DNA of 64,000 bases, from the NCBI GenBank assembly GCA_021202275.1, contig JAJQDI010000003.1:62001-126000 (forward strand), read 5' to 3'. The translations under genes and the position numbers were made by a program. The first letter of the stretch is position 1. Every line of letters starts with the position of its first letter. The notes beneath the pieces are model-generated. The model was not told where the DNA came from. It saw only the letters and a list, made by a program, of their open reading frames with translations, and made no database searches. Positions 10,566 to 33,915 of the stretch are shown here, piece after piece. Source of the stretch: Bacteroides sp. Its GTDB lineage: Bacteria > Bacteroidota > Bacteroidia > Bacteroidales > Bacteroidaceae.

Positions 10566-10667
10566 AAGAAAAAAGGAATCATATCTCTTTGCAGATCATA
10601 TGACTCCTTTTTCAGTGTGTTACCTAAAAACAATTTTTACCCCCTAAAAAACTAACCTATCTTTTAT
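10566..10667 (-). ncRNA. putative small RNA under Crp/Fnr control
   Basis: On the minus strand a TATCTTTG -7 box (10673-10680) is followed about 100 nt later by an intrinsic terminator: GGAGTCATAT pairs with ATATGATTCC (one mismatch) over 10575-10607 and ends in six T. The RNA has an AT-rich 5' half with a GGGGG run. It has no sizeable ORF; only a six-codon ATG-TGA frame overlaps the hairpin. An Fnr-type box is centred 29.5 bp upstream of the -7 box. It lies just downstream of the Crp/Fnr gene on the same strand. It could also be an attenuated leader of the YiiX-like gene. No known RNA family was recognised. Confidence 0.5.
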
Positions 10668-10672
10668 GTATG

Positions 10673-10680
10673 CAAAGATA
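10673..10680 (-). promoter_or_regulatory. -7 box (TATCTTTG) of the putative small RNA
   Basis: Exact match to TAnnTTTG on the minus strand. Lacks a TTTG at -33, as expected of an activator-dependent promoter. Confidence 0.55.
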
Positions 10681-10702
10681 TGTGGTTTGTAGGATATGTA
10701 AA

Positions 10703-10716
10703 TTGACATAGGTCAA
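10703..10716 (-). promoter_or_regulatory. Fnr-type box TTGAC-ATAG-GTCAA
   Basis: Perfect inverted repeat with the 5-4-5 layout of Crp/Fnr sites. Centre (10709.5) is 29.5 bp from the first T of the -7 box of the small RNA, equivalent to about -42 from the expected start, the class II activator position. It lies right after the stop codon of the regulator gene. Confidence 0.65.
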
Positions 10717-10724
10717 AAAGTATA

Positions 10725-11309
10725 TCAAAGTGCTCCCGAACGTACCCGGCTCAGGGTTTCCGGTGTCATCAGCAGATAAGAGGCGATGTGCGACAACGGT
10801 GCCCGTTTGATTACCTCAGGATGTGTCCTGAGCAGAAAATTGTATCGTTCGCGCGCGGTCTCGAACCGCCACGAATCCGCTTTCACCTGTGAGACGATCA
10901 GGGAGTATTCCAGTATTTTCCGGTAGAACATATTGATCTCCCAGGAACACTCCATCAGTTTCTGGAGTGTATCAAACGGCAACAGGTAGACTACCGCGGG
11001 TTCCAGAGCCTCTGCCATCAGGTGAGACGGTTCCTGCTTGAGCATACTTTCTATACACATCAGGATGCACCCCTCGTAGGAGAAATGCTCCGTTACATCT
11101 TTTCCGTTCTTGTAATAGAATTGCCGCATCATCCCTTTGCCTACGATCACAATGTGCTGGCAGGTCTGACCTTCATTGATCAGGAATTCATCTTTGGCCA
11201 GATCCTTACGTATAAGTACCTCTTCCAGTAGCCTGCGCCCTTCGGGGTGCATCTGCGGGTAGCGTGAATTGACAGCGGCATCTACCGCTTGTTTCATTAA
11301 TGTATCCAT
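10725..11309 (-). CDS. Crp/Fnr-family transcriptional regulator
   Basis: 194 residues, the common length in Bacteroidetes. Residues about 25-125 form the cyclic-nucleotide-type beta-roll (LINEGQTCQHIVIVGKGMMRQFYY). A dimerisation helix follows, then a short winged helix with APLSHIASYLLMTPETLSRVRS. The recognition helix has E-T-L-S-R, the Glu/Ser/Arg set that reads TTGAT/ATCAA half-sites in E. coli FNR. The N-terminal Cys cluster of FNR is missing, so it is not an FNR-type iron-sulfur oxygen sensor; its signal is unknown. Boxes of this kind lie in its own promoter and at three other promoters in the window. It is divergent from the 25-codon ORF. Confidence 0.88.
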   Translation of the reverse strand: MDTLMKQAVDAAVNSRYPQMHPEGRRLLEEVLIRKDLAKDEFLINEGQTCQHIVIVGKGMMRQFYYKNGKDVTEHFSYEGCILMCIESMLKQEPSHLMAEALEPAVVYLLPFDTLQKLMECSWEINMFYRKILEYSLIVSQVKADSWRFETARERYNFLLRTHPEVIKRAPLSHIASYLLMTPETLSRVRSGAL

Positions 11310-11356
11310 ACTCTTTTTACCTGTTTATGTGCGCTTTTTCTCATAGATTTCACTAG

Positions 11357-11364
11357 CAAAGTTA
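11357..11364 (-). promoter_or_regulatory. -7 box (TAACTTTG) of the Crp/Fnr gene
   Basis: Minus-strand TAACTTTG, 48 bp before the regulator's start. The box at 11373-11386 is centred only 15.5 bp upstream, inside the promoter, which suits autorepression. Confidence 0.6.
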
Positions 11365-11372
11365 CAAAATTC

Positions 11373-11386
11373 TTGATATGAATCAA
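11373..11386. promoter_or_regulatory. consensus Fnr box TTGAT-ATGA-ATCAA
   Basis: Exact match to the Fnr-type consensus TTGATNNNNATCAA. It overlaps the core promoter of the Crp/Fnr gene and lies 79 bp upstream of the -7 box of the divergent small ORF. Confidence 0.7.
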
Positions 11387-11421
11387 TTAATAAGCGATGA
11401 AACCGGTTGATTTTACACTTT

Positions 11422-11435
11422 TTGCTTTATATCAA
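11422..11435 (+). promoter_or_regulatory. Fnr-type box TTGCT-TTAT-ATCAA (one mismatch)
   Basis: Centre 11428.5 is 29.5 bp from the first T of the -7 box at 11458, the same spacing as at the small RNA and the MATE pump. Confidence 0.55.
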
Positions 11436-11457
11436 GTCCGGAAGATGACAATTGCAT

Positions 11458-11465
11458 TACCTTTG
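11458..11465 (+). promoter_or_regulatory. -7 box (TACCTTTG) of the 25-codon ORF
   Basis: Exact TAnnTTTG match 34 bp before the ATG at 11500. No -33 TTTG at normal spacing. Confidence 0.55.
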
Positions 11466-11499
11466 TCATGTTTTCAAGGATAACTAATTTTTAAGGTAA

Positions 11500-11577
11500 A
11501 TGGAAAAAGCGAAAAAGGTATTTGTCCGGTTCCTGTGTAAGATCAACAACAACGCGGAACTGGTATGGGGACTTTGA
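11500..11577 (+). CDS. putative 25-residue peptide
   Basis: ATG 11500 to TGA 11577 encodes a basic then neutral peptide: MEKAKKVFVRFLCKINNN, continuing to a C-terminus ending VWGL. It has its own -7 box, an upstream Fnr-type box and a strong terminator 38 bp after its stop, so a monocistronic transcript of about 175 nt is likely. The ATG follows the AT-rich TTTTTAAGGTAA leader usual for Bacteroidetes starts. I do not recognise the family. The transcript could act as an RNA instead. An amphipathic basic N-terminus with one Cys may suggest membrane association; that is only a guess. Confidence 0.5.
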   Translation: MEKAKKVFVRFLCKINNNAELVWGL

Positions 11578-11614
11578 TCTCAGATCATATCTCCTGTAAG
11601 GTAAAAAGTAAGTG

Positions 11615-11645
11615 CCCCTGTTGTCCGCGGACAACAGGGGTTTTT
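11615..11645 (+). terminator. strong terminator after the 25-codon ORF
   Basis: Perfect 12-bp stem CCCCTGTTGTCC / GGACAACAGGGG with a GC centre, followed by TTTTTG. Confidence 0.85.
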
Positions 11646-11699
11646 GTGTGGTGCCCGGACTCTTTTCCGGAAATGTGGCACCAGTTTGTTGGCTGAAAA

Positions 11700-11731
11700 T
11701 TTGTTGCGTATCTCTGTGAAGGCTATCTTTG
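11700..11731 (+). promoter_or_regulatory. full promoter of the alpha-2-macroglobulin/PBP1C operon
   Basis: TTTG at 11700-11703, a 20-bp spacer, then TATCTTTG at 11724-11731: an exact Bacteroidetes -33/-7 promoter, 25 bp before the ATG. Confidence 0.75.
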
Positions 11732-11756
11732 TTAGATCCATCAATACCGTATCGGG

Positions 11757-14700
11757 ATGAAAAAGCTGAACTTTTCTTTGTCCATGGCTTATTGTTTCTG
11801 TATGAGCCTGCTTCTACTGATGTCCTGTAAGAATAAACAGGAAGAAATAGTTCCCTCTGCCGAATATGCCGCCTATATCAGTGCGTATACAGGCGGTGTG
11901 ATCTCCTCTTCCTCTACCATCCGGATAGAGTTGGCTGCCGGACTGCCCATGGTAGAATTGAATGTTCCGCTGAAAAAGAACCCTTTTCGTTTTTCTCCTT
12001 CGCTGAAAGGAAAAGCCTGGTGGATAGACAACCGGACCATTGAGTTTGTGCCCGATGAAGGCGCGCTGAAACCGGGCAGGCTCTATGAAGCCACCTTCCG
12101 TCTGAGCGATTTCCTGGATATAGACGACTCTTTAGAGAAATTTACGTTCACTTTCCGGGTCATGGAGCGTCGTCTGGCTTTGGATGTGGAAGCTCCGCAG
12201 AGTATGCCGGATGCCGCCGGCCGGATGCAGGTCGAAGGAACCCTCCGTTTCAGTGAAGAGATGGAGCCGGACCAGGTAGCCTCACTGCTTTCCCTGAAAG
12301 GATATACAGCCGGTCAGGAGCCTTCTCTGACTCTCCATCCCGGAGCGCGCGCCGATACGTATCGGTTTACTGTTTCAGATATACAGCGTGACAAAAAGGC
12401 GTGGACACTGGAAGTCTGGGCCGATGCCTGTCCCCTGGGCATTGAACAGAGGGAGAGAAGAAATGTGGTTGTCCCTGCGGCGGATGAATTCTCTTTTCTC
12501 TCCGTAGAACAGATTGCCTATCCGGAGAATGGCCTGCGGGTCACCTTCTCCGATCCGCTTTCTGCCGATCAGGACCTGCGGGGACTGTTGCATCTGCCCG
12601 AATTGAGGGAGTATACCTATCAGGTAGAAGGAAACCGGGTAGATATTTATTTTGAGCCTACACAAGCCGATCGGTATACCCTTCATATAGACGGAGGCAT
12701 ACGTAACTGGCAGGGGCGGCAGTTGAACGAATGGAAGCAGATCTTTTTTCAGGGACAGGCCATACAGCCGCAGGTAAAGCTCCAGACCACAGGTACTATT
12801 CTGCCCGACTCCAAAAATCTACTGATCCCGTTCCAGGCGGTGAACCTGCGTGCGGTAGACCTGACGGTAGTCCGCATTTTCGAGAAAAATGTACTGACGT
12901 TTCTGCAGGATAATTCCTATTCCGGTTCCAATGAACTGCGCCGTTCGGGGCGTATGGTCTACCGGAAGACCCTGTGGCTGGATCGGGATCCTTCCAGAGA
13001 TCTCACCCGCTGGGAGGACTTCTCTGTAGATCTGAGCCAGCTCATCCGTCAGGAACCTGGCGCCATCTATCGGGTGATGCTCTCTTTCCGACAGGAATAT
13101 TCGCTCTATCCCTGTGGAGGTCGGTTACCGGAAACGCATCGTTCCGGAGATACCGGACCATCCGCGGAAGGGCTGACGCGGTTGATACCCGAAGAAGAAC
13201 CTGATTACGACGAATCTGTATGGGACGAACCCCGTACGTATTACTATATGGAAAATGAGGGGTACGACTGGAAACAATACGACTGGAAGCACAGAAACAA
13301 TCCCTGTCATCCAAGCTACTACATGCTTTCCAGCCGCAAAGCCTCCTGCAATGTACTGGCTACCAATCTGGGACTGATGGTGAAGAGAGGAGAGGGAGGC
13401 CGGGTGTGGGTGGCAGTGAGCGACCTGCTTACCACCCAACCGGTGGGTCAGGCGGAAGTCACTCTCTACAATTTCCAGCTTCGCCCCATCGGGCAGGTAC
13501 GTACCGATGCCGATGGTCTGGCTGTGGTCGAAGTCAAAGGAGTACCCTTTGTAGCGGTGGCCGCACACAACGATCAGAAGACCTATCTGAAACTGCCGGA
13601 CGGAGAAGAACTGTCGGTGAGCCGTTTCGATGTAGGCGGCAAACGTGTAGAAAAAGGCCTGAAAGGGTATATATACGGCGAGCGCGGCGTCTGGCGACCG
13701 GGCGATACCCTGCATGTCTCTTTCATCCTGGAAGACCGGCAGCAGCGGATTCCCTCTTCCCATCCGGTATCTATGGAGATCTACACCCCTACAGGGCAGT
13801 TCTACAGCAAGCAACTCTCTACCCGTGGAGAGAATGGATTCTATGCCTTTCATCTGCCTACGCGTACCGGAGACCCGACCGGGGTCTGGAACGCCTATGT
13901 CAAAGCAGGAGGGGCTACGTTCCACAAATCCTTGCGTATAGAAACGGTGAAGCCCAACCGGTTGCGTATGAACCTTTCTCTGCCGGGGCAGCTTCTGGAG
14001 GCCTCCCAGGGAGAAATCCCCGTCACACTCTCCGCCGCGTGGCTCACCGGGGCTACCGCCTCTTCCCTGAAAGCGGATGTGGAGTTGTCGCTGAAACGGG
14101 TGAATACACAATTTTCCGGCTACAGCAACTATGTATTTAACGATCCGGCTGCCGCTTTTGAGAGCGCGCAGGAAGAGGTGTTCAAAGGTGTACTCAACGA
14201 GAAGGGAGACGTGCGGTTCAACCTGCGACTGCCGCAGGCACAGCACGCACCCGGTCTGTTGCAGGCCCATCTGACTACCCATGTTTACGAACCGGGAGGA
14301 GATGCCAGCATACAAACCGTAAGTGTGCCCTATTCGCCCTTCTCTACCTACGTCGGTATCAACCTGAACGCAAGCAAAAGACAGACCTATCTGGAGACCG
14401 ATCAGGATCACTGGTTCGATGTGGTGACCGTAAACAGCCAGGGACAGCCTGTAGACCGTCCGGACCTGGAATACCGGATCTACAAAGTAGACTGGAGCTG
14501 GTGGTGGGAAAACCGTAACCAGACCTTTGAATCCTATATCCACAACACTTCCGTCTCTCCGGTAGAGTCGGGCCGTATCCGTACTACCGGTGGAAAGGGG
14601 CGTTTCTCCTTCCGGGTCAACTATCCGGGATGGGGACGTTACCTGGTCTATGTGAAAGATGGAGCAAACGGTCATGCCACGGGAGGCACTGTGCTCATTG

Positions 14701-17400
14701 ACTGGCCCGACTGGCGGGGACGTTCGGACAAGGCCGATCCGAGCGGACTGACGATGCTTACTTTTTCTACCGACAAAGAGAGTTACCAGGCAGGCGAGCG
14801 GGCCGTTGCTTACCTGCCTTCCGCGGCCGCCGGCAGGGCATTGGTATCCATAGAAAATGGTACTACGGTATTGCGCCGGGAGTGGGTATCGCTCTCCGAA
14901 AAGGGGGAAACGAAATATACGTTTGATGTGACGCCGGAGATGGCACCCAATGTCTACCTGCATGTGACCCTTCTGCAACCCCACGCGCAGACAGCCAATG
15001 ATCTGCCGATCCGTATGTACGGAGTGATACCGGTGATGGTTCACGATCCCGGTTCGCGCCTGGAGCCACAGATCCGTATGCCGGAAGTCCTGCGTCCCGA
15101 ACAGGCCTATACCGTTACGGTCAGTGAGAAAAAAGGAAAGCCCATGACCTATACACTGGCGGTGGTAGACGATGGTTTGCTGGATCTGACCTCGTTCCGC
15201 ACCCCTGATCCGTGGGAGGCTTTCTATGCCCGGGAAGCCCTGGGGATACGTACCTGGGACATGTATCAGCAGGTGATCGGAGCCTATTCGGGCAGTTACG
15301 GTTTGCTCTTTGGTACGGGTGGGGACGAGACGTTGAAACCTTCCGACGCGAAGGCCAACCGCTTCCGTCCGGTAGTGAAGTTCCTGGGACCGTTTACCCT
15401 CCGCAAGGGAGAGAGCCGCAAGCACGAGATCCGGTTGCCGATGTATGTCGGCTCGGTACGCACCATGGTAGTAGCCGGCTACGAAGGCGCGTATGGAAAT
15501 ACCGAACAGACTACCCCTGTGCGGTCGCCGCTCATGGTCTTGTCTACTTTGCCCAGGGTGCTCAGCATCAACGAAGAGATCGCGCTGCCCGTCAATGTCT
15601 TTGCCATGGAAGAGAGTGTAAAGCTGGTGAACCTGCGGGTAGAAACAACCCCGGGTCTGGTACTGGAAGGTAGCGACAAACAGTCTCTGACATTTTCCGG
15701 TCCGGGCGATGAACTGGCCCTGTTCCGCCTGCGTACAGGAATGCAGACCGGAAAAGCTACCGTAAAGATCACTGCCACCGGAGGAGGCAAGACCACTACG
15801 GAGACGGTGGAAATCGAGATACGTAACCCCAATCCGGCGGTAACACTCTCTGAGAGCCGGTTGCTGGAAGCGGGTGCTGTGGCGGAAATGAACTATCAGG
15901 GGGGGGATGCCTGGTACCGATAGCTGGACCCGACTGGAACTTTCCCGCATCCCGGCTGTGAACATCAATCGTCGTTTCGATTTTCTCTATACCTACGAAC
16001 ATCACTGCACCGAGCAATTGACTTCCAAAGCATTGCCTCTCTTGTTCATCGATCGTTTCAGACACGTGGATCAGGCAGAGCAGGAGAAGATCCGTAGCAA
16101 TGTATCCGAAGCGATCCGTTTGTTGTACGGCAGGCAACTGCCCGATGGCGGATTCATCTATTGGCCGGGACATACGTCTGCCGATGAGTGGATCACTTCC
16201 TATGTGGGTAACTTCCTGGTACTGGCGCAGGAGCGTGGATACGAAGTGAATACACAGGTGATGGCCCGCTGGAAAAGCTACCAGCGCAAGCGGGCACAGA
16301 ACTGGATGAGCGTAACGGGTGGCACGCGGGTAGGAGCCGCTGCCGATATGGAGCAGGCCTATCGGCTCTATACCCTCGCGTTGGCCGGAGCGGCCGAGAT
16401 AGGGGCGATGAACCGTTTGCGCGAGCTGCCCGATCTCTCTTACCAGGTACGGGGCCGTCTGGCTGCTGCCTATACGCTGAATGGAAAGAAAACCATAGCG
16501 GAAGAATTGCTTGTGCGCGGAGCCGGAGAAAAAGATACCTATTACGGGTCGCCTTATGGATCTTCCCAGCGAGATGAAGCGATGTTGCTGGAGACACTGA
16601 TCCTGCTGGACAGAGACCAGGAGGCGTTCGGACAGGCGCGCCGGCTTTCCGCGATGATGGAGACCGAGGAATATTTCAGTACGCAATCCACTGCTTTCTC
16701 TCTGATGGCTATGGGGCGTCTGGCAGGGAAGATGTCCGGATCGATCCGGGCCGCGTGGAGCCTGAACGGAGCGGCTCAGGCAGCCGTACAGAGCACGCAA
16801 GCCATACATACGTTGGATCTTCCGGATGCTTCGGGACGATTGTCGCTCACCAATCAGGCAGAGGGGATGCTCTATGCTTCTCTGATCACACACCAGCAGT
16901 TGCTCAACGATACACTGCCGGAGCTATCGGAAGGCTTGAAGCTGGAGGTCCGGTATGTGGATGCTGCCGGCAATCCGGTGAATGCGGAGAATCTGGCACA
17001 GGGAAGTGAGTTCGAAGCCCGGATCCGGGTGACCAATACCAGCCTCAACCGGGACTACCGGGATCTGGCACTGACCCACATCGTACCTTCGGGATGGGAG
17101 ATCTACAACGAGCGTCTGCGGGAGGCAACAGACGATGACTCTGCTGTGGAGACAGCGGCTTCCGGGGCAGGTACCGCCCCCTCATCGGCACAGAGCAGAG
17201 TATATACCTATCAGGATATCCGTGACGACAGGGTACTGACCTATTTCGACCTGCCACGGGGCAGGTCGGCCGACTTCCGTGTCCGGCTGCAAGCCAACTA
17301 CGCGGGAGAGTTTGTATGGCCGGCTTTGCAATGCGAAGCCATGTATGAACCCACCGTCCGCGCGCGTACCAGAGCCGGAAGGGTAGTGGTACAGCGTTAG
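11757..17400 (+). pseudogene. bacterial alpha-2-macroglobulin lipoprotein, single frameshift
   Basis: About 1,880 residues when joined. Residues 1-24 are a lipoprotein signal (LLLLMSC). MG-type beta-sandwich domains follow, with the bait-region area around residue 1100-1160. The complement-like part follows the break: GMPGTDSWTRLELSRIPAVN, then CTEQ, the CxEQ thioester motif that covalently traps proteases, and an alpha/alpha toroid. The break is a run of eight G at 15899-15906; seven G would join the frames as NYQGGMPGTD. The gene is followed 7 bp later by PBP1C, the classic pairing (as yfhM-pbpC in E. coli), in which the trap guards the periplasm and PBP1C repairs the wall. A slippage-prone G run makes real phase variation conceivable but unproven. 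Confidence 0.9.
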
Positions 17401-17407
17401 ATACCGG

Positions 17408-19780
17408 ATGTACCTATGTCAGAAGGCTGGAAGAAGATATCTCAGTGGGGGGAAGCAGTGGTTGTCGCGCCTGCGGACAGGATGGCAATCGATGAGCTAC
17501 CGGCGTCGCGCGATGTATGGTATCTCGCTGGTCTTGCTGATCGCATATATTTGTTGTCTGCCCCGGCAGCTGTTTGATGTACCCTATGCTACGGTGGTGA
17601 CAGATCGCCAGGGAGAACTTCTGGGAGCACGTATAGCCACCGACGGGCAGTGGCGTTTTCCACCCAGGGACAGTGTACCTGTGAAAGTGGAAACCTGTTT
17701 ACTGGAGTTTGAAGATCGTTATTTCTACCGGCACTGGGGCGTGAACCCGTTGGCTATGGGACGGGCCCTTCGTCAGAATCTGGGAGAAGGCAGGGTCGTG
17801 AGCGGCGGGAGCACCCTGACGATGCAGACCATTCGCCTGTCGCGCAGGAAGCCGCGTACACTTCGTGAGAAATTCCGCGAATGTATGTGGGCCACCCGAC
17901 TGGAATTCCGGTATCCGAAGAAAAAAATATTGGCCATGTACGTGTCTCACGCCCCTTTCGGGGGAAATGTCGTGGGGCTCGATGCCGCTTCGTGGCGCTA
18001 TTTCGGTCGGGAACCGGAAGCGCTTTCCTGGGCCGAAGCGGCTACATTGGCCATTTTGCCCAACGCACCCTCCATGATACACCTTTCCCGGGGCAGGGAG
18101 GCTTTGCTGCGGAAGCGTAACCGGTTGCTGGAAAGATTGCATCGAAGTGGAAAGATCGATTCCACCGATTATGAACTGGCACTGGAAGAGCCCTTACCGG
18201 GCGAGCCGTTGCCGCTGCCGGCAACCGCCTTTCATCTGGTCGATTATTTTCATCGTTCCTCTGCCGGGCAGCGGGTGGTATCTACATTGGACAGGGAGTT
18301 GCAGCTGCGTGTAGAAGAGGTGGTAGAGCGATGGAACCGGGAGTTTTCCCAAAGTGATATCCGCCACCTGGCAGCATTGGTCATTGATCTGCACAGCCAT
18401 GAAGTAACGGCCTATTGCGGAAATACACGCCTCCATCCAGAGCAGTGGGGCAATCAGGTGGATGTGATCCGCTCTCCCCGCAGTACGGGGAGCATACTCA
18501 AGCCTTTTCTGTATGGTGCCATGCTTCAGGAGGGTGAACTGTTGCCTCATACCTTACTCCCTGATATTCCTATGAATATCAACGGGTTCACTCCGCAGAA
18601 CTTCAACAAGCAATACGAGGGGGCAGTACCTGCTTCGGAAGCAGTGGCCCGCTCGCTCAATATTCCTACCGTACATATGCTCCGGAGGTACAGTGTACCC
18701 CGGTTCCAGCAGATCCTGACGCAATCCGGACTCTCCACACTCACCCGTTCGCCTTCTCATTACGGCCTTTCGCTGATCCTGGGAGGGGCCGAAGCCACGC
18801 TGTGGGATGTGACGGTAGCCTATGCCGATATGGCGCGTTTGCTGGCGGGTCGTCCGGAGAAAGCCTGCCACCTGCTGGTGGAGAACAAAGAGGGAGCTCC
18901 TTCCCATAAGACCCCTTTTCACCGGGGAGCGGTGTGGCAGACTTTTGAAACGCTGAAAGAGGTCAATCGCCCGGAAGAGATCGACTGGCGCCTGATCCCT
19001 TCCATGCAGACCGTCGCCTGGAAAACAGGAACCAGTTACGGGTTCCGGGATGCCTGGGCGGTGGGAGTGACCCCGCGCTATGCGGTAGGGGTCTGGGTGG
19101 GAAACGCTACGGGTGAGGGAAAGCCTGGCTTGACGGGAGCCCGCACAGCCGGACCGGTGATGTTCGATATCTTCAACCTGCTGCCTGCTTCCGGGTGGTT
19201 CGAAGTACCGTATGAAGAGTTTACCGAGGCAGAGATCTGTACGGAATCGGGACATCTGAAGGGACGTTTCTGCGACCATTGGGAGCAGAGGCTGGTGATG
19301 CCTGCCGCGTTGAAAACGGAGGTTTGCCCCTATCATCATCCGGTCTGTCTGACGGCCGACGAAAGTTTCCGGCTGTATGCCTCCTGCGCAGAAGGTATGC
19401 CTACGGTAGAGTGCAACTGGTTCACACTGCCTCCTGCCTGGGAATGGTACTACCGGCAGCATCATCCCAACTATCGTGCACTGCCACCCCTCAGTCCGGA
19501 TTGCGGAGTGGACAACTACCTGCCCATGCAGTTTATCTATCCGCAGATGAATGCCCGGATCGTGTTGCCGCGGCAACTCGATGGATCGGCCGGAAATGTT
19601 ACGTTCGAACTGGCACACAGCGATCGGCACGCAGTAGTCTACTGGCACCTGAACGATACCTATTTGTCGGAGACAAGAGATTTTCACAAACTCACCCTGA
19701 CTCCCGAGCCGGGCAGACATTCCCTGACGGTAGTAGACGACAAAGGCAACCGTCTGTCAGTTGCCTTTGTTGTAGAATAG
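17408..19780 (+). CDS. pbpC: penicillin-binding protein 1C
   Basis: 790 residues, complete. A membrane anchor (about residues 35-55, YGISLVLLIAYICCL) precedes a GT51 glycosyltransferase domain with FEDRYFYRHWGV (catalytic Glu) and GGSTLTMQ. The transpeptidase domain has the three active-site motifs: GSILKPF (Ser-x-x-Lys), SLN and KTGTS. The C-terminal ~90 residues form the PBP1C-specific beta domain. It polymerises and crosslinks peptidoglycan at the inner membrane. Its start is 7 bp after the macroglobulin gene and the two share one promoter. No internal break. Confidence 0.95.
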   Translation: MYLCQKAGRRYLSGGKQWLSRLRTGWQSMSYRRRAMYGISLVLLIAYICCLPRQLFDVPYATVVTDRQGELLGARIATDGQWRFPPRDSVPVKVETCLLEFEDRYFYRHWGVNPLAMGRALRQNLGEGRVVSGGSTLTMQTIRLSRRKPRTLREKFRECMWATRLEFRYPKKKILAMYVSHAPFGGNVVGLDAASWRYFGREPEALSWAEAATLAILPNAPSMIHLSRGREALLRKRNRLLERLHRSGKIDSTDYELALEEPLPGEPLPLPATAFHLVDYFHRSSAGQRVVSTLDRELQLRVEEVVERWNREFSQSDIRHLAALVIDLHSHEVTAYCGNTRLHPEQWGNQVDVIRSPRSTGSILKPFLYGAMLQEGELLPHTLLPDIPMNINGFTPQNFNKQYEGAVPASEAVARSLNIPTVHMLRRYSVPRFQQILTQSGLSTLTRSPSHYGLSLILGGAEATLWDVTVAYADMARLLAGRPEKACHLLVENKEGAPSHKTPFHRGAVWQTFETLKEVNRPEEIDWRLIPSMQTVAWKTGTSYGFRDAWAVGVTPRYAVGVWVGNATGEGKPGLTGARTAGPVMFDIFNLLPASGWFEVPYEEFTEAEICTESGHLKGRFCDHWEQRLVMPAALKTEVCPYHHPVCLTADESFRLYASCAEGMPTVECNWFTLPPAWEWYYRQHHPNYRALPPLSPDCGVDNYLPMQFIYPQMNARIVLPRQLDGSAGNVTFELAHSDRHAVVYWHLNDTYLSETRDFHKLTLTPEPGRHSLTVVDDKGNRLSVAFVVE

Positions 19781-19807
19781 AGAATGATCTCTTTGTGTAT
19801 CCCGGGA

Positions 19808-20821
19808 TTATCTGTGGCCCGCGCCTCCGCCGCGCATTTCACTGCCACCGCCGTGCATCTCGTTGCCACCACTGTGCATTTCATTTCCACCGAAGTTTTC
19901 CCGGTGAAGATTTCCCGAAGGGGCAAACTGATGCATAGAAGATTGCCTGACAGGAAGGTTCTCTATATTATTCCTGTGTTGATTGAAGTTGCTATTGGGC
20001 CAGGAAGAGTCTTTGTGCATGGGGCTGACCGAATTTTCATCCGCTTTGCGTATCTGCATAGGCTCGGGATGATAAACCTGCGGACGATAGACCGGTATCT
20101 CTCTGTTGTCATTTCTCAGGCTCGTCTGTGTGGTCGGGAGGACAGTATGTCGGTCACCGTCTTTCAATACGGAAGGTGTCACCTCTTTCCGGGTGAATCC
20201 GGCTACCTGGCGCGCGTCGGGACCCGCGGAATAATATCGGTTGCCTGCGCTGCGCTGGAAATTGTTCATCAGTGTGATCCTGCCGGCATCGTTCCGCACG
20301 ATGTTCTCAGAGGCAAGTCTGTGATGGAGGTCGTGATCCATGATGTGGTTCTTGTCCACCACATTCCAGTAATAGTCATGCTCCGGTCTCCATCCTCTCC
20401 AGGAGTCTACGGAAATATCCACGCCGGGGGCTACAGGTGCCCAGGCATAATTGTTGCCCGTTTCGCCCCATACCACCCATGAAGGGGCCCATTCGTATCC
20501 GGGAACCCATAACCATCCGTAGGAGTTGTCATACAACCAGCTCCCGTAATGGAAAGGAGCCCATCCCCAGTCGTACGCTGAATCCCAGTACTATCCTTCC
20601 GTGGTATATTCCCAATGTCCGTTGGTGGCATAAGGCCGGAAATCCGATACATTCGGGTGCCATACATTGCCATACTGCGGATATTCGATCCATGTACCGT
20701 ACGGAGAAAGGGTGTTGTAAAACTCCTGGAACGTAATGGCGGCCTTGTTGGCAGTCTGGGCAGAAAGCGATAGACTGGCCGCGACCATACACATAATTAT
20801 AAACGTATAGATCTTTTTCAT
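19808..20821 (-). pseudogene. DUF6600-type Trp-rich exported protein with an in-frame stop
   Basis: Start ATG at 20821 gives a Sec signal (MKKIYTFIIMCMVAASLSLSAQ). The body is a tandem of short Tyr/Trp/Pro blocks (FYNTLSPYGTWIEYPQYGNVW, PFHYGSWLYDNSYGWLWVPGYEW), the pattern of DUF6600 proteins. The frame is cut by TAG at 20591-20593 at YTTEG*YWDSAYDWGW, where relatives have Trp; TGG to TAG is one transition. After it the frame runs on to a C-terminus with the repeated unit GGNEMH/GGSEM. Envelope or periplasmic protein of unknown function. Confidence 0.75.
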
Positions 20822-20903
20822 ACTCTTGATTTTTAGTTTTTGATGAATTGAATTCCCTTTTAACATATCACACTCTGCTTTGTTCGCTTTGTTCGGAAGT
20901 ACT

Positions 20904-23483
20904 TTATATCCAACGCACATATGCGAAGTCCATGCGGTGTGCCATATCTTTGTTTTTGGGAAACATACGGAAGGCATAACTGAATATCCCGGATTGCCTG
21001 ATTACATACTTATCGCTGAACCGGAGACGTGATCCCTGCTCTCCGCTCATCGTTAATTCTTTAGCCGCGACGAAGGTATTGGTATGTGTTTCCGGATCGT
21101 AACTGGTCAGTACAAGATCTATACCCGGTTCTTCGTTCATCTCTTTCCTGTCTATAACGATCTCTATATTCACCTCATTTCCATCAAGCAGCAGCGAAGG
21201 ACCTGTCAGAACCTGTCCTCTGGTATCGGTCATGGCAATGGATACTACTTCTACGCTGTCCCATCCGGCCACGGTATCCTTTTTCCAGGCAGCCAGTTCT
21301 TTGGCCTTTTCGAATTGGTTTTCGGAGATATACCGGGTACGGTCGGCCAGCGGACGATAGAATGTAGCCGTGTATTCATCAATCATCCGTTTGGTTGTGT
21401 ACCGCGGAGCAATGTAAGCCATGGAATTTTTGATGTACTGTATCCATTCGGCAGGGATCTCTTCCGTATCTCTTTTGTAATAGAGCGGTAAGATGGTATG
21501 TTCAAATGTGTAGTAGATGTATTCTGCATCCAGCTGATCCTGATACTCCTCGTTGTCATAGATCTGTTTTTCAGATAAGGCCCACCCGGCATCCTTCCGG
21601 AATGCCTCGTACCACCATCCGTCGAGTACGGAGAAGTTGAGAGCTCCGTTCATTACTGCCTTCTGACCCGATGTGCCCGAAGCTTCCATCAGCCGTACAG
21701 GAGTATTGAGCCAGATATCCACTCCGGATATCATTCGTTTGGCGAGCTCCATGTCATAGTCTTCAAGGAACAAAACCTTGCCCTGAAATTCCGGCATACG
21801 TGAGATATCTATCACTCGTTTGATCAGGTCTTGTCCGGCTCCGTCTGCGGGATGGGCTTTCCCGGCAAACAGGAATACTACCGGATACTGCTCGTTGTTG
21901 ACCAGCTTCGACAGGCGCTCTGTATCCGAAAAAAGCAATTGTGCCCGCTTGTAAGTAGCAAACCTCCGCCCGAATCCTACGAATAGCGCGTTGGCATTGA
22001 AGCCTTCGATCACCCCGTATACCTCTGCCGGCGAAAAGTGGATTTTCATGGCGCCTGCCCTGAACTGTTGTTGCAGGTAGCGGATAAACAGTTTTTTCAG
22101 ATCCAGACGTATCTTCCACAGTTTCTCATCCGGCACGGATTGTATCCGGCTCCATTTGGAAGGCTCCGACTGGTGGGTGTAGAAGTCCGGGCCGAAAGTT
22201 TCTTTATACAGATCTTTCATCTCTCCGGAAGTCCAGGTAGGCATATGTACACCGTTGGTCACGTGTCCCACATACAACTCTTCGGCAAAGTAGCCTTTCC
22301 ATACCGGTTGGAACATGACGCGGGATACTTTCTCGTGCAGCAGGCTCACTCCGTTGGCTTGCAGGCAGGTATTGAGGGCAAATACGCTCATACTGAATTT
22401 CTCCTGCGATCCCGGCTCCGCTCTTCCCATGTCTGCGAATTCCTGCCAGGAGATGCCCAGCCGGGGCGGATAACTACCCATGTATTTACCCAGCAGGCCC
22501 TCGTCGAAATAGTCGTGTCCGGCAGGAACAGGAGTGTGTACGGTATATAATCCGCTGGCGCGTACCACTTCCAGTGCCTGGTTGAATTCCAGTCCTTGTC
22601 CTTCGATCAGATCCAGTAAACGCTGGATATTGATGAAAGCTGCGTGCCCTTCGTTGCAATGGTACACTTCTTTCCGGATGCCCAGTGTATCCAGTAACTG
22701 AATACCACCTATACCCAGCAGGTATTCCTGTTTGATACGGTTTTCCAGGTCGCCACCGTACAATTCGTGCGTGATGGGCCGGTCCAGGTCACTGTTCATA
22801 TTGTTGTCCGTATCCATCAGATAGAGTGATGTACGGCCAACATTCGCCTTCCAGATATTGGCGTAGATATTCCGTCCGGGATACGGTACTGCCAGCACCA
22901 GCGGAGAGCCATCTTCGCGGAGGACCTGCCGGATGGGAAGTTCTTCAAAGTTCTGTGGCTGATACTCCGCTACCTGGTGCCCGTCCGGTGAAAGGGTCTG
23001 TCTGAAGTATCCGTACCGGAAGAGCAGACCTATCCCGGTAAGGTCTATCCGACTGTCGCTTGCCTCTTTCAGGTAGTCTCCGGCCAGGATGCCGAGTCCG
23101 CCCGAATAGATCTTCAATACATTCGTCAATCCATATTCCATACTGAAATAGGCTACGGAAGGCTTTGCCGGATCGGGCTCCTGGGACATATAGTCCCGGA
23201 AGAGTGTAAGTACCTCCTCCATACGTTTCATCAATCCCTCGTCTTTCGTAATATCCTGTATTCTTTCCAGGGTGAGGTATTGCAGTAGAAGTACCGGGTT
23301 GTGTCCGACCGTTTGCCACAGTCCGGGATCTAATGCTTCAAAAAGCTCCATGGCTTCTGTGTTCCAGCTCCACCACAGGTTATGGGCCAGATTGGTGAGT
23401 GGAGCCAGCTTATCGGATAGTTCCAGTTTGGAATGGATGGTACGCCAGTCAGGATCGTTGGTATGGCTTGTTACGGTTCTCAT
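20904..23483 (-). CDS. glgP: alpha-glucan (glycogen/maltodextrin) phosphorylase
   Basis: 859 residues, complete. The N-terminal domain (DUF3417-like, NLWWSWNTEAMELFEAL) and the phosphorylase core are both present: YFSMEYGLT, the glucan-binding CNEGHAAF and the PLP-phosphate site EASGTSGQKAVMNG at about residue 640. It belongs to the compact (~850 aa) phosphorylase group that releases glucose-1-phosphate from glycogen or maltodextrin in the cytosol. It begins without a clear -7 box. The DUF6600 gene lies 82 bp downstream on the same strand. Confidence 0.93.
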   Translation of the reverse strand: MRTVTSHTNDPDWRTIHSKLELSDKLAPLTNLAHNLWWSWNTEAMELFEALDPGLWQTVGHNPVLLLQYLTLERIQDITKDEGLMKRMEEVLTLFRDYMSQEPDPAKPSVAYFSMEYGLTNVLKIYSGGLGILAGDYLKEASDSRIDLTGIGLLFRYGYFRQTLSPDGHQVAEYQPQNFEELPIRQVLREDGSPLVLAVPYPGRNIYANIWKANVGRTSLYLMDTDNNMNSDLDRPITHELYGGDLENRIKQEYLLGIGGIQLLDTLGIRKEVYHCNEGHAAFINIQRLLDLIEGQGLEFNQALEVVRASGLYTVHTPVPAGHDYFDEGLLGKYMGSYPPRLGISWQEFADMGRAEPGSQEKFSMSVFALNTCLQANGVSLLHEKVSRVMFQPVWKGYFAEELYVGHVTNGVHMPTWTSGEMKDLYKETFGPDFYTHQSEPSKWSRIQSVPDEKLWKIRLDLKKLFIRYLQQQFRAGAMKIHFSPAEVYGVIEGFNANALFVGFGRRFATYKRAQLLFSDTERLSKLVNNEQYPVVFLFAGKAHPADGAGQDLIKRVIDISRMPEFQGKVLFLEDYDMELAKRMISGVDIWLNTPVRLMEASGTSGQKAVMNGALNFSVLDGWWYEAFRKDAGWALSEKQIYDNEEYQDQLDAEYIYYTFEHTILPLYYKRDTEEIPAEWIQYIKNSMAYIAPRYTTKRMIDEYTATFYRPLADRTRYISENQFEKAKELAAWKKDTVAGWDSVEVVSIAMTDTRGQVLTGPSLLLDGNEVNIEIVIDRKEMNEEPGIDLVLTSYDPETHTNTFVAAKELTMSGEQGSRLRFSDKYVIRQSGIFSYAFRMFPKNKDMAHRMDFAYVRWI

Positions 23484-23760
23484 ATATCCATGTTATCAGT
23501 AGGATTGAGCAAAAAATGATGTTTTTATCGTTGGAGAACAGTCGGGTAGTCCCTTTTGTTTTTGCGGGTGGATGATAGGGAAAATGAATTCCGTCAGCGA
23601 GAGGTTCTAAGCAGGTTGTATGCAATATATCGATGGACTTGCTGATCCGTTACCCGAGATTTTCGCTTTTAAAAGTGTTCTGTTACAGTCTCATGAAAAT
23701 ATATTTCTGGAATGTCATTTTTCATTTTCAGAGTAATCTTTTAATTATAAGGAATGATCT

Positions 23761-24398
23761 GTGTTTATGCATGACTTCTGGACGAATAGAAAAAACTTGC
23801 AGAAAATATCTGAGTTCTTGTATCGAAAGCTTCGATCTCCAGGTTTAGACATACAGCTACAAGTAGATCTCATTCAAATATTAGGTACAATAAAATGGCC
23901 TTACGCCAAAAGGTTAGCAATAAAAAATATGTATAGTACAGTACGTGATTTGAGACACAGAAGTGTTATAGTATTGGAGTGGGTAGGTAATGCTCCTGAT
24001 CCTCTCTTGTTAAATAAGAGAATGATGAACGATGGAGACGCTCAACTTAGAGGTTCTGTTTCCATTGCTATGTGTCAGATCTTCTGGCATGATCATCCGG
24101 AAACAAAAGATGCAATAGCGGAATGTATGTTTGAAGCGGTGATAAAAGAGGAAGATCCTGTAGCATGAGCACTGGAAGGAATGCTAATAACGATCCAGAC
24201 TTTGTTAAAGAAAAAAAATGATCAAATGAGAGTCGGTATGGGATGATTACTGGGGATAGTTTAAAAGCGAAAGACAAAATGGCTGTTTTCCTGGAAAAGC
24301 ATCTGAAAGATAAAGTGTACAATACTTTCATTACGATGTGGTAGATAGATCTGGAATTCATGCTTTTTTTCAAAGAGTTTAAAAACCTTACCCGATGA
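23761..24398 (+). pseudogene. decayed helical-repeat (HEAT-like) protein
   Basis: The frame from 23761 (GTG; ATG at 23767) runs as paired helices (KNLQKISEFLYRKL, DIQLQVDLIQILGTIKWPYAKRLAI, DAQLRGSVSIAMCQIFW) that look like HEAT-type repeats. It meets TGA at 24166-24168, after PVA and before ALEGMLITIQTLL, where TGG would read through. A later frameshift in the A8 run near 24210-24220 and a TAG after ITMW follow, ending at about 24398. Function unknown; possibly a regulatory or immunity-like repeat protein. The multiple lesions favour true decay here. Confidence 0.5.
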
Positions 24399-24729
24399 AA
24401 CAGAAAAGGATCAGAGGGGACGGTACTTCATCCAGTGTATGCGGGATAATAGTCTTTTCCTGTCCGGAATTGATGGTATATATACTGTTGTCGATGATGT
24501 AGAAGTATAACCTGTTTATCTTTTCGGATGATCAGGGTATTCCATGAATTATGTTCCGGACTGCTGAACCCTGAGGTGTTTTGTTACTGTTGGTAGTATC
24601 TTTAGGTTACCTCAGAATGAATACGTCCATCTGCTATCATTTTTTCCTGAATAACTAAATAAACATAACAAGGCGGACTTTTAAGCAAACAATGATTATC
24701 TTTATACGATAATCATTCGGCTTAATCCT
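24399..24729. other. 330-bp stretch before the AraC gene
   Basis: No intact gene. A short open stretch (GRYFIQCMRDNSLFLSGIDG in translation, about 24419-24511, plus strand) looks protein-like and may be another gene remnant. The last 60 bp are AT-rich and carry the AraC gene's leader. Confidence 0.35.
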
Positions 24730-25602
24730 ATGAATACAAAATCAGATGTAGTAATTTATAACTATCTGGATACCTTTTTCTGTTGTTATGTAGAAAATGA
24801 AAAGCTATGTGAGGATATGGTATCCGATCATACGCTGGTATACATCTGTTCCGGGGAAATGATTCTGGTTACAAAGGAAAAACGGTTTATCCTGAAAAAA
24901 GGAGATTCTTTCTTTCTGAAACGTAATCATCTGATTAGAAAGATCAAGCAGCCGACAAAGAATGGCGAGAGTTTCAAAGGGCTTTTTCTGCAACTCAAAA
25001 CACCGTTCCTCAAAAAAATGTTTGCTGAACAACGGATCACTCTTCCGGTAAATGGAGGCAAGTCTACAGGGAATTCCCATCATGTAATGTTGGAAAAACA
25101 TCTGTTTTTCGATGGATTGTTTATGTCGCTCGAACAATATTTCAATACAAAGGAATATCCCTCTACAGAATTGATGGATGCCAAGTTAAAAGAAGCTGTC
25201 TTTGTGTTGTTACAACTGAAACCGGAACTTAGCTCTGTGTTGTTTGATTTTACCGATCCGTGGAAAACCGACCTGGCGGATTTTATGATAAACAATTATA
25301 AATGTGATCTTTCCGTTGAAGAATTTGCTCGTTATACCGGACGTAGCCTGTCGACATTCAAGAAAGATTTTGCTCGTATTTATCAGGAGACACCCAGTAG
25401 GTGGCTGGTTAAAAAGCGGTTGGAAGAGGCTAGGGATCTTATCAATAACAAAGGACAAAAACCTTCGGAGGTATATTTGAATATAGGCTTTAAAAACCTT
25501 TCTCACTTTTCAACTGCTTTCAAAAAGCAATTCGGATATACCCCGTCAGTAGCTGCGGCAAAAAAAGGGGGGGATCATCGGATGTTACCAACAATCAGGT
25601 AA
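24730..25602 (+). CDS. AraC-family transcriptional regulator
   Basis: 290 residues. The N-terminal ~150 form a cupin-like sensing domain (LRFILKKGDSFFLKRNHL region). The C-terminal ~100 carry the double helix-turn-helix of AraC proteins: DLSVEEFARYTGRSLSTFKKDF and the second motif KPSEVYLNIGFKNLSHFSTAFKKQFGYTPS. It lies just upstream of a YqhD-like dehydrogenase in the same direction, as the E. coli activator YqhC lies next to yqhD. It is therefore a good candidate activator of that gene in response to reactive aldehydes; that role is inferred from synteny only. Confidence 0.85.
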   Translation: MNTKSDVVIYNYLDTFFCCYVENEKLCEDMVSDHTLVYICSGEMILVTKEKRFILKKGDSFFLKRNHLIRKIKQPTKNGESFKGLFLQLKTPFLKKMFAEQRITLPVNGGKSTGNSHHVMLEKHLFFDGLFMSLEQYFNTKEYPSTELMDAKLKEAVFVLLQLKPELSSVLFDFTDPWKTDLADFMINNYKCDLSVEEFARYTGRSLSTFKKDFARIYQETPSRWLVKKRLEEARDLINNKGQKPSEVYLNIGFKNLSHFSTAFKKQFGYTPSVAAAKKGGDHRMLPTIR

Positions 25603-25659
25603 CGTTTCAGAAAACAAATTTATGACTTTTTAGAAAAACAATCACACTGGATCAGTTCG

Positions 25660-25688
25660 TATATTTGCATGGCTGAACGAAAACGTTC
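25660..25688 (+). promoter_or_regulatory. promoter and small palindrome upstream of the dehydrogenase
   Basis: TATATTTG (25660-25667) is a -7 box. Eight bases later GAACGAAAACGTTC (25675-25688) is a perfect 5-4-5 palindrome near the transcription start, a plausible operator. Confidence 0.45.
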
Positions 25689-25727
25689 GTCATGTAATTT
25701 TTGTATCTATCTATTAATAAAAAAAAT

Positions 25728-26872
25728 ATGAATAACTTTATTTTTCAGAATCCGGTAAAACTCATTGTGGGTAAAGGAATGATCTCAGAATTAGCCAATG
25801 AAATACCTGCCGGGAAACGCGTCATGGTAACTTTTGGAGGGGGTAGTGTAAAGAAGAACAACGTATATAATCAGGTAAAAGAGGCTCTGGAAGGCTTTTA
25901 TACCGTAGAGTTCTGGGGGATCGAAGCGAATCCTACCATAGAAACCCTTCGTAAAGCCATTGCTTTGGGAAAAGAAGAAAAAATAGACTTCCTCCTGGCT
26001 GTGGGAGGCGGCTCTGTAATTGACGGAACCAAACTGATTTCTGCCGGTCTGTTATATGACGGCGACGCGTGGGATCTGGTACTGGGTGGTAAAGAAACAC
26101 GCACAATTCCTCTGGCAACCGTACTTACTCTTCCGGCAACAGGCTCGGAAATGAATGCGGGTGCAGTGATTTCCAATAAGGCTACCCGGGAGAAGTTTGC
26201 CTTTTTTCCAATTATCCCGTATGTTCCATTCTCGATCCCGAAGTGACTTTTACACTTCCCGACAATCAGATTACCAATGGACTGGCCGATACATTTGTAC
26301 ATGTTATGGAACAATACCTGACCGTTCCCGGTGTGTCTCGGCTTATGGATCGTTGGGCAGAGGGTATACTCCAGACGGTGGTGGAAATAGCACCGTTGAT
26401 TCAAAAAGATAAACACAATTACGATCTGATGGCCGAATTCATGCTTTCAGCAACAATGGGGCTTAACGGGTTTGTTGCACTGGGTGGTGTACCCCAGGAT
26501 TGGGCAACACACATGATAGGACACGAACTGACTGCACTACACGGTCTTTCACACGGACATACCCTCGCAATCGTTCTTCCCGGTACCATGAATATACTGC
26601 GCGAGAGCAAAGGCGACAAGATCCTTCAATACGGCGAACGTGTCTGGGGTATAACCGAAGGAACACGTGACGAACGTATGGATATGGTCATCTCGAAAAC
26701 CGATGAATTTTTCCGTTCACTCGGCCTTACAACCCGCCTGAGTGAAGAAAATATCGGAACCGATACTATTAATGAAATAGAACGCCGTTTCAATGAACGT
26801 GGAGCAGCCTTCGGTGAGAATCAAAACGTGAACGGCGAAATTGCTAAGAAAATTCTATCCGATAGAATATAA
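25728..26872 (+). pseudogene. iron-type alcohol/aldehyde dehydrogenase (YqhD-like), frameshifted
   Basis: The first half (ATG 25728) has the NAD(P)-binding block with GGGSVKKN, GGGSVIDGTK and LPATGSEMN. The second half has the metal ligands (DTFVHVMEQYL, HMIGHELTALHGLSHGHTLAI). The frames change in a run of six T at 26202-26207; one more T gives FAFFSNYPVCSILDPEVTFTL, matching the family. Full length is about 382 residues. GGGSVKKN and the HGLSHG block resemble the NADPH-dependent YqhD/BdhA group, which reduces toxic aldehydes such as methylglyoxal or butanal in the cytosol. Directly downstream of an AraC regulator. Confidence 0.85.
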
Positions 26873-26967
26873 TATTACCTCTATGTTATCTTTTCCCCAT
26901 CTTAAAAGCATAGTACCGGATAGGTTGTTTCCAAAGTGCTTCAATCCATATTTTCTGGTAATTTTGT

Positions 26968-27016
26968 AAAGAAGAAAAGTCCTGTAAATGTATCATTTAC
27001 AGGACTTTTCTTCTTT
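26968..27016. terminator. bidirectional terminator between dehydrogenase and tRNA-Ser
   Basis: Perfect 23-bp stem (opening AAAGAAGAAAAGTCCTGT) with a 3-nt loop. A-rich and T-rich arms give U tracts in both directions. Serves the rightward dehydrogenase and the leftward tRNA. Confidence 0.85.
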
Positions 27017-27032
27017 TTGCTATTTATATCAG

Positions 27033-27119
27033 CGGAAGCGGCGAGATTCGAACTCGCGGAACAGTTGCCCGTTCGTCAGTTTAGCAAACTGGTGGTTTCA
27101 GCCACTCACCCACACTTCC
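27033..27119 (-). tRNA. tRNA-Ser (anticodon GCU)
   Basis: The minus strand folds as a class II tRNA. Acceptor GGAAGTG pairs with CGCTTCC (one G-U), the D-loop region is GAGTGGCTGAAACC, the anticodon loop is TTGCTAA with GCT at 27083-27085, a long variable arm follows, and the T arm is GCGAGTTCGAATCTCGC. 87 nt. CCA is not encoded. It decodes AGC/AGU serine codons. An exact promoter lies at 27149-27180. Confidence 0.95.
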
Positions 27120-27148
27120 TTCAGAGGCATTTTCTCTCAAATGCGATG

Positions 27149-27180
27149 CAAATATAGGCTGAACTTTTGTACTATGCAAA
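27149..27180 (-). promoter_or_regulatory. full promoter of tRNA-Ser
   Basis: Minus-strand TTTG (27177-27180), 20-bp spacer, TATATTTG (27149-27156). Confidence 0.75.
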
Positions 27181-27332
27181 TGTTTGGAAAAGATTTTTTA
27201 TGCCAAAATCGTCTCTTTCCGGTAAGCAACTCAACTTCAAGATGTAATACAGAAGAGAAGATGTGAACGGTTGTGTGAAAAGATTACAAGGATGTTTTTG
27301 TTTGTGAATTTCCCCTTTCCCACAGTGGAATA

Positions 27333-27346
27333 TTGATATATATCAA
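27333..27346 (+). promoter_or_regulatory. consensus Fnr box TTGAT-ATAT-ATCAA before the MATE pump
   Basis: Exact TTGATNNNNATCAA. Centre 27339.5 is 29.5 bp from the first T of the -7 box at 27369, the class II position and identical to the spacing at two other promoters in the window. Confidence 0.75.
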
Positions 27347-27368
27347 TCGCCCGGTGCGGAGGAATGGA

Positions 27369-27376
27369 TAAATTTG
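27369..27376 (+). promoter_or_regulatory. -7 box (TAAATTTG) of the second MATE gene
   Basis: Matches TAnnTTTG, 29 bp before the GTG start at 27406. No -33 TTTG, as expected if an activator is required. Confidence 0.6.
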
Positions 27377-33665: not shown

Positions 33666-33848
33666 ATAAATTAAATCTTGGAAAGCAGCTTTCCCTCTTT
33701 CCTTGTATGAAAACCCGCAATTTCGGATAAAAGTTCGTTTTTTCGTATCCATCCCGGTTCTCCTTCTCTTCTTTATCTATCAGGAAAGAGCCGGACATAA
33801 AAAATATCCCTCTATTCCAACTGACCTCTGCTACGTGGAATAAAGGGC

Positions 33849-33910
33849 AAAAAAGGAGTCACGCCTGACTCCAACCTTTGTTAACCTTAAATCTAATACT
33901 ATGAAAAACA
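33849..33910 (-). ncRNA. short terminated RNA (sRNA or attenuated leader)
   Basis: On the minus strand a full promoter (33916-33946) is followed about 40 nt later by GGAGTC-AGGCGT-GACTCC and six T. This predicts a ~60-nt RNA. The next gene downstream on this strand is the SanA-like gene, 184 bp away, so the hairpin could be an attenuator. Read on the plus strand the same stretch has a 13-codon ATG ORF (MKNTLQRYGSSGE) with no support for expression. Layout (TATCTTTG, AT-rich leader, GGAGTC hairpin, T6) repeats that of the RNA at 10.6 kb. Confidence 0.5.
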
Positions 33911-33915
33911 CATTG

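Follow-up and report, generated by a model that had tools for sequence, protein, structure and literature searches.

A 64,000-nucleotide stretch of a Bacteroides sp. genome (assembly GCA_021202275.1, contig JAJQDI010000003.1, positions 62,001 to 126,000 of the forward strand; hereafter the window) encodes a Crp/Fnr-type regulator, here called REG, and carries four Fnr-type boxes at promoters beside or near it. Our analysis makes it probable that REG binds these boxes in two capacities: it would repress its own gene and, as a class II activator, switch on a MATE-family efflux pump, a small RNA and a 25-residue peptide. The sequence itself shows the four boxes with their spacings, as well as their recurrence at orthologous Bacteroides genes despite changes in gene order. 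In the mechanism that we propose, a REG dimer would bind boxes of the form TTGAY-N4-RTCAA; at about -41.5 it would turn on the pump, the small RNA and the peptide together, and on the box over its own promoter it would turn its own gene down. The signal would be a small molecule or reactive species sensed in the N-terminal domain with its invariant Cys85, and the small RNA would likely relay that signal to mRNAs. The features concerned are listed below in window coordinates.

10570..10668, minus strand: candidate small RNA of about 99 nt, counted from the predicted +1 to the terminator (alignment, covariance, folding)
10673..10680, minus strand: -7 element TATCTTTG of the small RNA promoter (exact pattern search)
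10703..10716, minus strand: Fnr-type box TTGACCTATGTCAA of the small RNA promoter (exact pattern search; geometry kept in 28/28 confident small RNA copies)
10725..11309, minus strand: Crp/Fnr-type regulator REG, 194 residues (cNMP_binding domain, AlphaFold2 model, Foldseek match, recognition helix)
11357..11364, minus strand: -7 element TAACTTTG of the REG promoter (sequence; 15.5 bp from the centre of TTGATATGAATCAA)
11373..11386, no strand assigned: Fnr-type box TTGATATGAATCAA, perfect, over the REG promoter; predicted autorepression site (sequence and comparison)
11422..11435, plus strand: Fnr-type box TTGCTTTATATCAA of the micro-protein promoter, one half-site imperfect (exact pattern search)
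11458..11465, plus strand: -7 element TACCTTTG of the micro-protein promoter (exact pattern search)
11500..11577, plus strand: 25-codon open reading frame (ORF) MEKAKKVFVRFLCKINNNAELVWGL, ending NNNAxxVWG[FL] (sequence; conserved ending)
11615..11645, plus strand: terminator-like hairpin with a T-run, downstream of the 25-codon ORF (sequence)
27333..27346, plus strand: Fnr-type box TTGATATATATCAA of the MATE promoter (exact pattern search)
27369..27376, plus strand: -7 element TAAATTTG of the MATE promoter (exact pattern search)
27406..28755, plus strand: MATE-family efflux transporter MATE1, 449 residues, GTG start (Pfam and TIGRFAM)

We searched both strands of the window for the exact pattern TTG-N8-CAA, 22 bp, TAnnTTTG, in which 29.5 bp separate the box centre from the first T of TAnnTTTG. 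Three matches were found (10673-10716 on the minus strand, 11422-11465 and 27333-27376 on the plus strand), at the positions and the spacing that a first-pass annotation of this DNA had reported. In 100 dinucleotide shuffles of the window, the mean number of such pairs was 0.00. The box alone (TTGAYN4RTCAA) occurred three times against a shuffle mean of 0.56, and 1 of the 100 shuffles contained at least three; since the box alone is only mildly rare, its fixed-distance pairing with TAnnTTTG is the outstanding feature. A scan of the whole genome (4,428,892 bases in 33 contigs, 95.5% complete), which the annotation had proposed as a check, gave four exact pairs against none for the reversed pattern. 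Three of the four lie within 17 kb that includes REG, and the fourth (G000:C28:185711-185754) stands ahead of a HAD-type hydrolase gene and a tilS-like gene, divergent from feoAB.

The search was extended to 120 Bacteroides genomes that are 80% or more complete, with the pattern TTGAY-N4-RTCAA, 22 bp, TAnnTTTG. Exact pairs numbered 117 in 68 of the 120 genomes (table sum) and the reversed pattern 1; as matches across the genus share ancestry, these counts represent non-independent events, and some of the 117 may not be promoters. With a variable gap covering 31 spacings, 348 matches were obtained against 34 for the reversed pattern (table sums). Among the 150 variable-gap matches listed, 49 were at 29.5 bp, 17 at 30.5 bp and 36 at 15.5-17.5 bp, with at most 7 at any other spacing. 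Moreover, in a background set of 1222 ORFs (ATG-started, at least 120 residues, from the flanks of 80 REG loci with the REG surroundings left out), a box at 29.5 or 30.5 bp preceded only two, both of them MATE1 genes. The idea of a purely local regulon, as annotated, is thus rejected by the fourth genome site and the genus-wide sites. The proposed targets, a terminated RNA, a 25-codon ORF and a MATE pump, fared better, for each keeps the box at its orthologous promoters in Bacteroides, also after gene-order change.

To describe the targets, 102 distinct site sequences, a subset of the 117 sites, were sorted by eye. They comprised the small RNA (20), MATE1 (16), a second MATE family called MATE2 (15), a DUF4250 gene of small-genome species (14), a VOC-family gene (4), a HAD gene (1), an MFS-like gene (1) and others (31). 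A Crp/Fnr gene 24-47% identical to REG lies within 1.5 kb of 17 of the 31 others. For MATE2, DUF4250 and VOC the Pfam assignment comes from a single member of each, and the MFS-like, SDR- and NmrA-like labels were given by eye. Across the genus, the targets (MATE genes of two families, with a VOC-family or MFS-like gene now and then) hint at a defence against a toxic compound by export or removal.

By its predicted structure, REG is a member of the Crp/Fnr superfamily, with a cNMP-binding-type beta-barrel followed by a helix-turn-helix. It matches Pfam PF00027 (cNMP_binding) at 36 bits (cut-off 27.5), and the Pfam scan reported no separate helix-turn-helix family. The AlphaFold2 model had a mean pLDDT (predicted local distance difference test) of 93.8, and its best structural match in Foldseek was A. 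fischeri FNR; CRP was also matched. The E. coli FNR box is TTGAT-N4-ATCAA. The E-T-L-S-R recognition set to which the annotation had pointed is seen as TPETLSR beside TVETISR of E. coli FNR (b1334), so that REG carries the E..SR recognition helix that reads TTGAT in FNR, and the same reading of DNA is predicted for REG. In a structure-based alignment of REG with 50 of the 80 REG loci (51 sequences, relatives 49-80% identical), P183, E184, L186, S187, R188, V189 and R190 were invariant, as was Cys85. In the model, the barrel strands are followed by a helix, and Cys85 sits immediately ahead of it, which we take to be about the place of the ligand-binding cassette in CRP. Compared with E. coli FNR, REG has no cysteines near its N-terminus like those that hold the [4Fe-4S] cluster of FNR. 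For the anaerobic, nitrosative and redox signals that had been envisaged, our data give no support except the invariant Cys85. A PADLOC search gave no match for REG or MATE1.

A PF00027 search of the genome found four Crp/Fnr-type genes, whose helices were read by eye as TPETLSR (REG), TPQSLSR (contig C15), and TTSNAIR and TRLNISK (both contig C10). Only REG among the four has the E..SR motif, which makes it the likely reader of TTGAY, if not the proven one.

The position -41.5 is the textbook site of a class II activator, as for FNR and CRP. In the portion available to us of a Flavobacterium start-site map, TAnnTTTG spans -12 to -5 (PMC9723704). If TAnnTTTG starts at -12, as taken from Flavobacterium, a distance of 29.5 bp puts the box centre at -41.5, the spacing expected of class II activation. 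The core idea of the first-pass annotation, a Crp/Fnr regulon activated at about -42, is therefore supported by comparative tests, from which binding and direction are inferred. Its phrase 'one exact geometry' holds for the three window sites and loosens to 30.5 bp in 10 of 30 MATE1 loci. It had also remarked on the missing -33 TTTG; this is true at these sites and carries little weight, since the box occupies most of that place. A -33 TTTG was present at 0 of the 102 sorted sites, where most of the tested positions are fixed by the pattern itself.

The fourth box of the window, TTGATATGAATCAA, had been overlooked and lies over the promoter of REG. We scanned 75 REG loci (the window and L005-L078, some ending at contig ends) and in 27 of them the TAnnTTTG of REG itself has, at 15.5-18.5 bp, a box with a score of 9-10 of 10. 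With TAnnTTTG starting at -12, this box covers the -33 region, and a protein bound there would likely block the polymerase. At two loci (L019 and L020), a single box is shared, lying 17.5 or 18.5 bp from the REG element and 29.5 bp from a divergent MATE element.

We then examined the targets one by one. MATE1 belongs to the MATE family by its matches to Pfam MatE (PF01554, 4.3e-51) and TIGR00797 (229.8 bits, cut-off 147.4). Among the MATE1 loci tested for the box (30 of 31 matches), 27 combined a perfect TAnnTTTG with a box of score 9-10 of 10, placed at 29.5 bp (17) or 30.5 bp (10). Of the 31 genomes with MATE1, 17 have it no more than 200 bp from REG, and every one has a REG match, compared with 93 of 120 genomes overall. 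The distance in the window is 16 kb, and the box is kept there. For MATE2, of which the best 30 of 63 loci were tested, 21 had the pair at 29.5 bp (19) or 30.5 bp (2), and three loci (L350, L356 and L360) had a 10/10 box at 51.5-52.5 bp. No MATE2 was found in the genome of the window at E <= 1e-120. In the accessible part of a study of P. gingivalis, the MATE gene PG0827 is up 920-fold under iron limitation and has an antisense RNA (PMC10434189).

Around the pump, a tRNA gene (Rfam) at 27033-27119 on the minus strand lies between the MATE promoter and an iron-containing alcohol dehydrogenase that is split, as if frameshifted, into two overlapping ORFs (25701-26246, N-terminal, Fe-ADH; 26243-26872, C-terminal, ADH_Fe_C). 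At L010 and L013, a tRNA-like sequence was seen by eye just upstream of REG, and together with the tRNA gene near the MATE promoter here it indicates that the region may be rearranged. Elsewhere in the genome (G000:C15:130337-130828, L372), a MATE-type gene stands directly upstream of the Crp/Fnr-type gene with helix TPQSLSR. Part of this MATE gene and the Crp gene share one long open frame, which by eye suggests a broken MATE gene. MATE-Crp pairs may be a recurring unit.

For the small RNA, we aligned 20 of 27 flagged sites; the seven left out are DUF4250 leaders that lack a terminator. Two GTTTTTA-type repeats lie in the 5' part, which is predicted to be unpaired, and 10 of the 11 pairs of the terminator hairpin show at least one compensatory double change. 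No conserved ORF was seen by eye in the 20 copies. A covariance model searched against 133 Bacteroides genomes gave 28 matches at E <= 4.4e-7, each from a different genome. All 28 of these confident copies had a 10/10 box at exactly 29.5 bp and a perfect TAnnTTTG, a result that is partly circular because the model was seeded from box-bearing copies. In one genome (G046:C9) the small RNA lies about 45 kb from REG and retains the box. Two weaker matches that were checked (L270 and L271) had no 29.5 bp box with a perfect TAnnTTTG.

The small RNA region of the window had no Rfam match up to E 1, and thus none to FopS (RF04319) or GibS (RF04182). A plain copy of either was rejected; a relative (L245) reached 34.4 bits against the GibS cut-off of 115. 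L270 (E 1.7e-4 with the small RNA model) reaches 36 bits with FopS, below the threshold of 56, and among 10 other weak model matches that were checked none matched FopS or GibS up to E 0.01. A phage origin of the small RNA was also rejected, no match being found. The TTAGTTTT motif was discarded as a unique mark of this RNA, since it also occurs in the leaders of DUF4250 genes. In small-genome Bacteroides (L135, L136, L141, L198, L213 and others), a 29.5 bp box stands ahead of the DUF4250 gene, and the leader has TATTAGTTTT, resembling the small RNA repeat. The window also contains a FopS small RNA of its own (RF04319, 70.9 bits) at 33845-33911 on the minus strand. A matrix built from the second repeat of the candidate small RNA ranked the seed region of this FopS 5th of about 128,000 positions, and it is possible, judging from this likeness, that the two RNAs share a seed type.

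The 25-codon ORF is, as far as its conserved ending indicates, a conserved but rare micro-protein. An exact pattern search for the ending NNNAxxVWG[FL] found it in 4 of 133 Bacteroides genomes, and diverged copies may escape this pattern. At L005, L015 and L026, the micro-protein ORF is divergent from REG and has the 29.5 bp box, and L026 has two such short ORFs in tandem. NCBIfam gave no family match for the ORF. At the HAD loci (in the range L312-L328), the box was at 41.5 bp (9) or 42.5 bp (1) in 10 of the best 30 of 53. Such boxes, like those at 51.5-52.5 bp (MATE2) and 57.5-58.5 bp (MATE1), are possibly class I-like sites; the distances of 51.5-58.5 bp at MATE loci would recall class I activation.

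Chance was the first alternative considered, namely that the boxes are palindromes that happen to lie near AT-rich promoters. TTG and CAA are short, the box at 11422-11435 has an imperfect half-site, and a box without a -7 element is only mildly rare. The absence of any pair from 100 shuffles, the count of 117 against 1 in the genus and the conservation at orthologous promoters reject this explanation, to which we give practically no weight. It is unlikely, though less so, that the boxes at 29.5 bp are repressor sites, with REG blocking the promoters of the pump, the RNA and the peptide until a signal arrives, as TetR-type pump repressors do. A box over about -48 to -35 could hinder RNA polymerase, and the box at the promoter of REG itself looks repressive. 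However, the spacing at the targets is 29.5 bp, less often 30.5 bp, while the own-promoter boxes drift over four positions from 15.5 to 18.5 bp. This near-fixed spacing, which fits contact with the polymerase, is the main argument for activation at the targets. Where MATE spacings deviate, they jump to 51.5-58.5 bp, as activator sites can by whole helix turns, and -41.5 is itself a class II position. Somewhat less credible still is that another Crp/Fnr protein binds the boxes and that REG adjoins them for other reasons. Paralogous Crp/Fnr genes in the genus show the same geometry at their neighbours, the genome has three more Crp/Fnr-type genes, and at 95.5% completeness a further one may have been overlooked. 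Against this, the other three lack E..SR by eye, and the boxes lie at the promoter of REG itself and at neighbouring genes in many species.

Activation of the targets by REG, with repression of its own gene, remains the reading that we prefer, and several results weigh against it. Exact pairs are also present in genomes for which no REG match was obtained at E <= 1e-30 (e.g. G115, G042, G059 and G101), where they mostly adjoin other Crp/Fnr genes; REG is thus not alone in having this geometry. Of 18 relatives of REG belonging to other genera of the family, L283 alone has a perfect box near a TAnnTTTG. In three MATE1 loci of 62-64% identity (L175-L177), a 10/10 box lies at 57.5-58.5 bp instead, in one case with a TAnnTTTG off by one base, and 9 of the best 30 of 63 MATE2 loci lack a pair at 29.5 or 30.5 bp. 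The HAD hydrolase is weakened as a core target, with the 29.5 bp pair in 2 of the best 30 of 53 loci. In the 75 REG loci, again including some that end at contig ends, the own-promoter box is confined to the 27 given above and the exact downstream site to 12. Besides the circularity of the 28 small RNA copies, few of these copies differ from the seeds of the model.

At the paralogous Crp/Fnr genes (L118, L121, L127, L137, L204 and L231), a 29.5 bp box was seen right after the stop codon, and the gene that follows is SDR- or NmrA-like by eye. Paralogue loci thus repeat the arrangement of regulator, box and target. The first-pass annotation had noted neither this geometry at paralogues nor MATE2 and the further targets.

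We compared these findings with known systems. E. coli FNR shares with REG the T-x-E-T-x-S-R helix and a box centred 29.5 bp upstream of the first T in a -10-like element, and it activates a small RNA, FnrS. In contrast to FNR, REG has 194 residues, no N-terminal cysteine cluster and TAnnTTTG promoters of the Bacteroidetes type, and its predicted targets, a pump, an RNA and a peptide, are encoded next to it or close by. The only PDB sequence match to REG is 3dn7, a Crp-type structure from Cytophaga hutchinsonii (E 1.9e-13, residues 34-191, same length), whose record names the protein only as a cyclic nucleotide binding regulatory protein; we know of no targets for it. In the open-access collection searched, judged by title and abstract, no paper on REG was found. 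As far as the accessible parts of the reports describe them, the HcpR/SnoA systems of Porphyromonas and Bacteroides also combine a Crp/Fnr regulator with an adjoining RNA locus and a target gene (PMC13370916, PMC12750200). In the sections of the preprint at hand, HcpR of B. thetaiotaomicron has 222 residues and controls hcp, SnoA is antisense to the hcp promoter, and the SnoA level is independent of HcpR (PMC13370916). On those sections, hcpR-snoA-hcp is the nearest published arrangement that we met (PMC13370916), and REG is set apart from it by length (194 against 222 residues) and by RNA layout, the RNA of REG having its own box promoter. Going by excerpts of the respective papers, GibS and FopS of Bacteroides resemble the small RNA in being short, with an unstructured 5' part and a terminator (PMC11697453, PMC7366714), whereas the window small RNA has no Rfam match. 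The REG system is a new regulon of a kind already known.

A wider reading is tentative, and we consider it doubtful as a whole: a cluster-less FNR-type protein would run a genus-wide defence circuit with self-repression, two MATE families and a two-seed, FopS-related small RNA that retunes outer-membrane or polysaccharide genes during pump activity, using class II activation at promoters of the Bacteroidetes sigma factor, with the peptide as partner or cargo of the pump. Within that reading, class II activation would work with the Bacteroidetes sigma factor as it does in E. coli, because TAnnTTTG starts at -12 like a -10 element.

To our knowledge, it is rare for a transcription activator of gut Bacteroides to have a target list together with a predicted site and a fixed promoter geometry. 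If the regulation proposed here is true, REG would form a compact module, in which an FNR-type activator fits Bacteroidetes promoters at the -41.5 position of E. coli and comes with a dedicated small RNA and efflux pumps. Targets of other Crp/Fnr proteins of the genus might be assigned with the aid of the motif-plus-spacing rule, given that the geometry is found at paralogues too.

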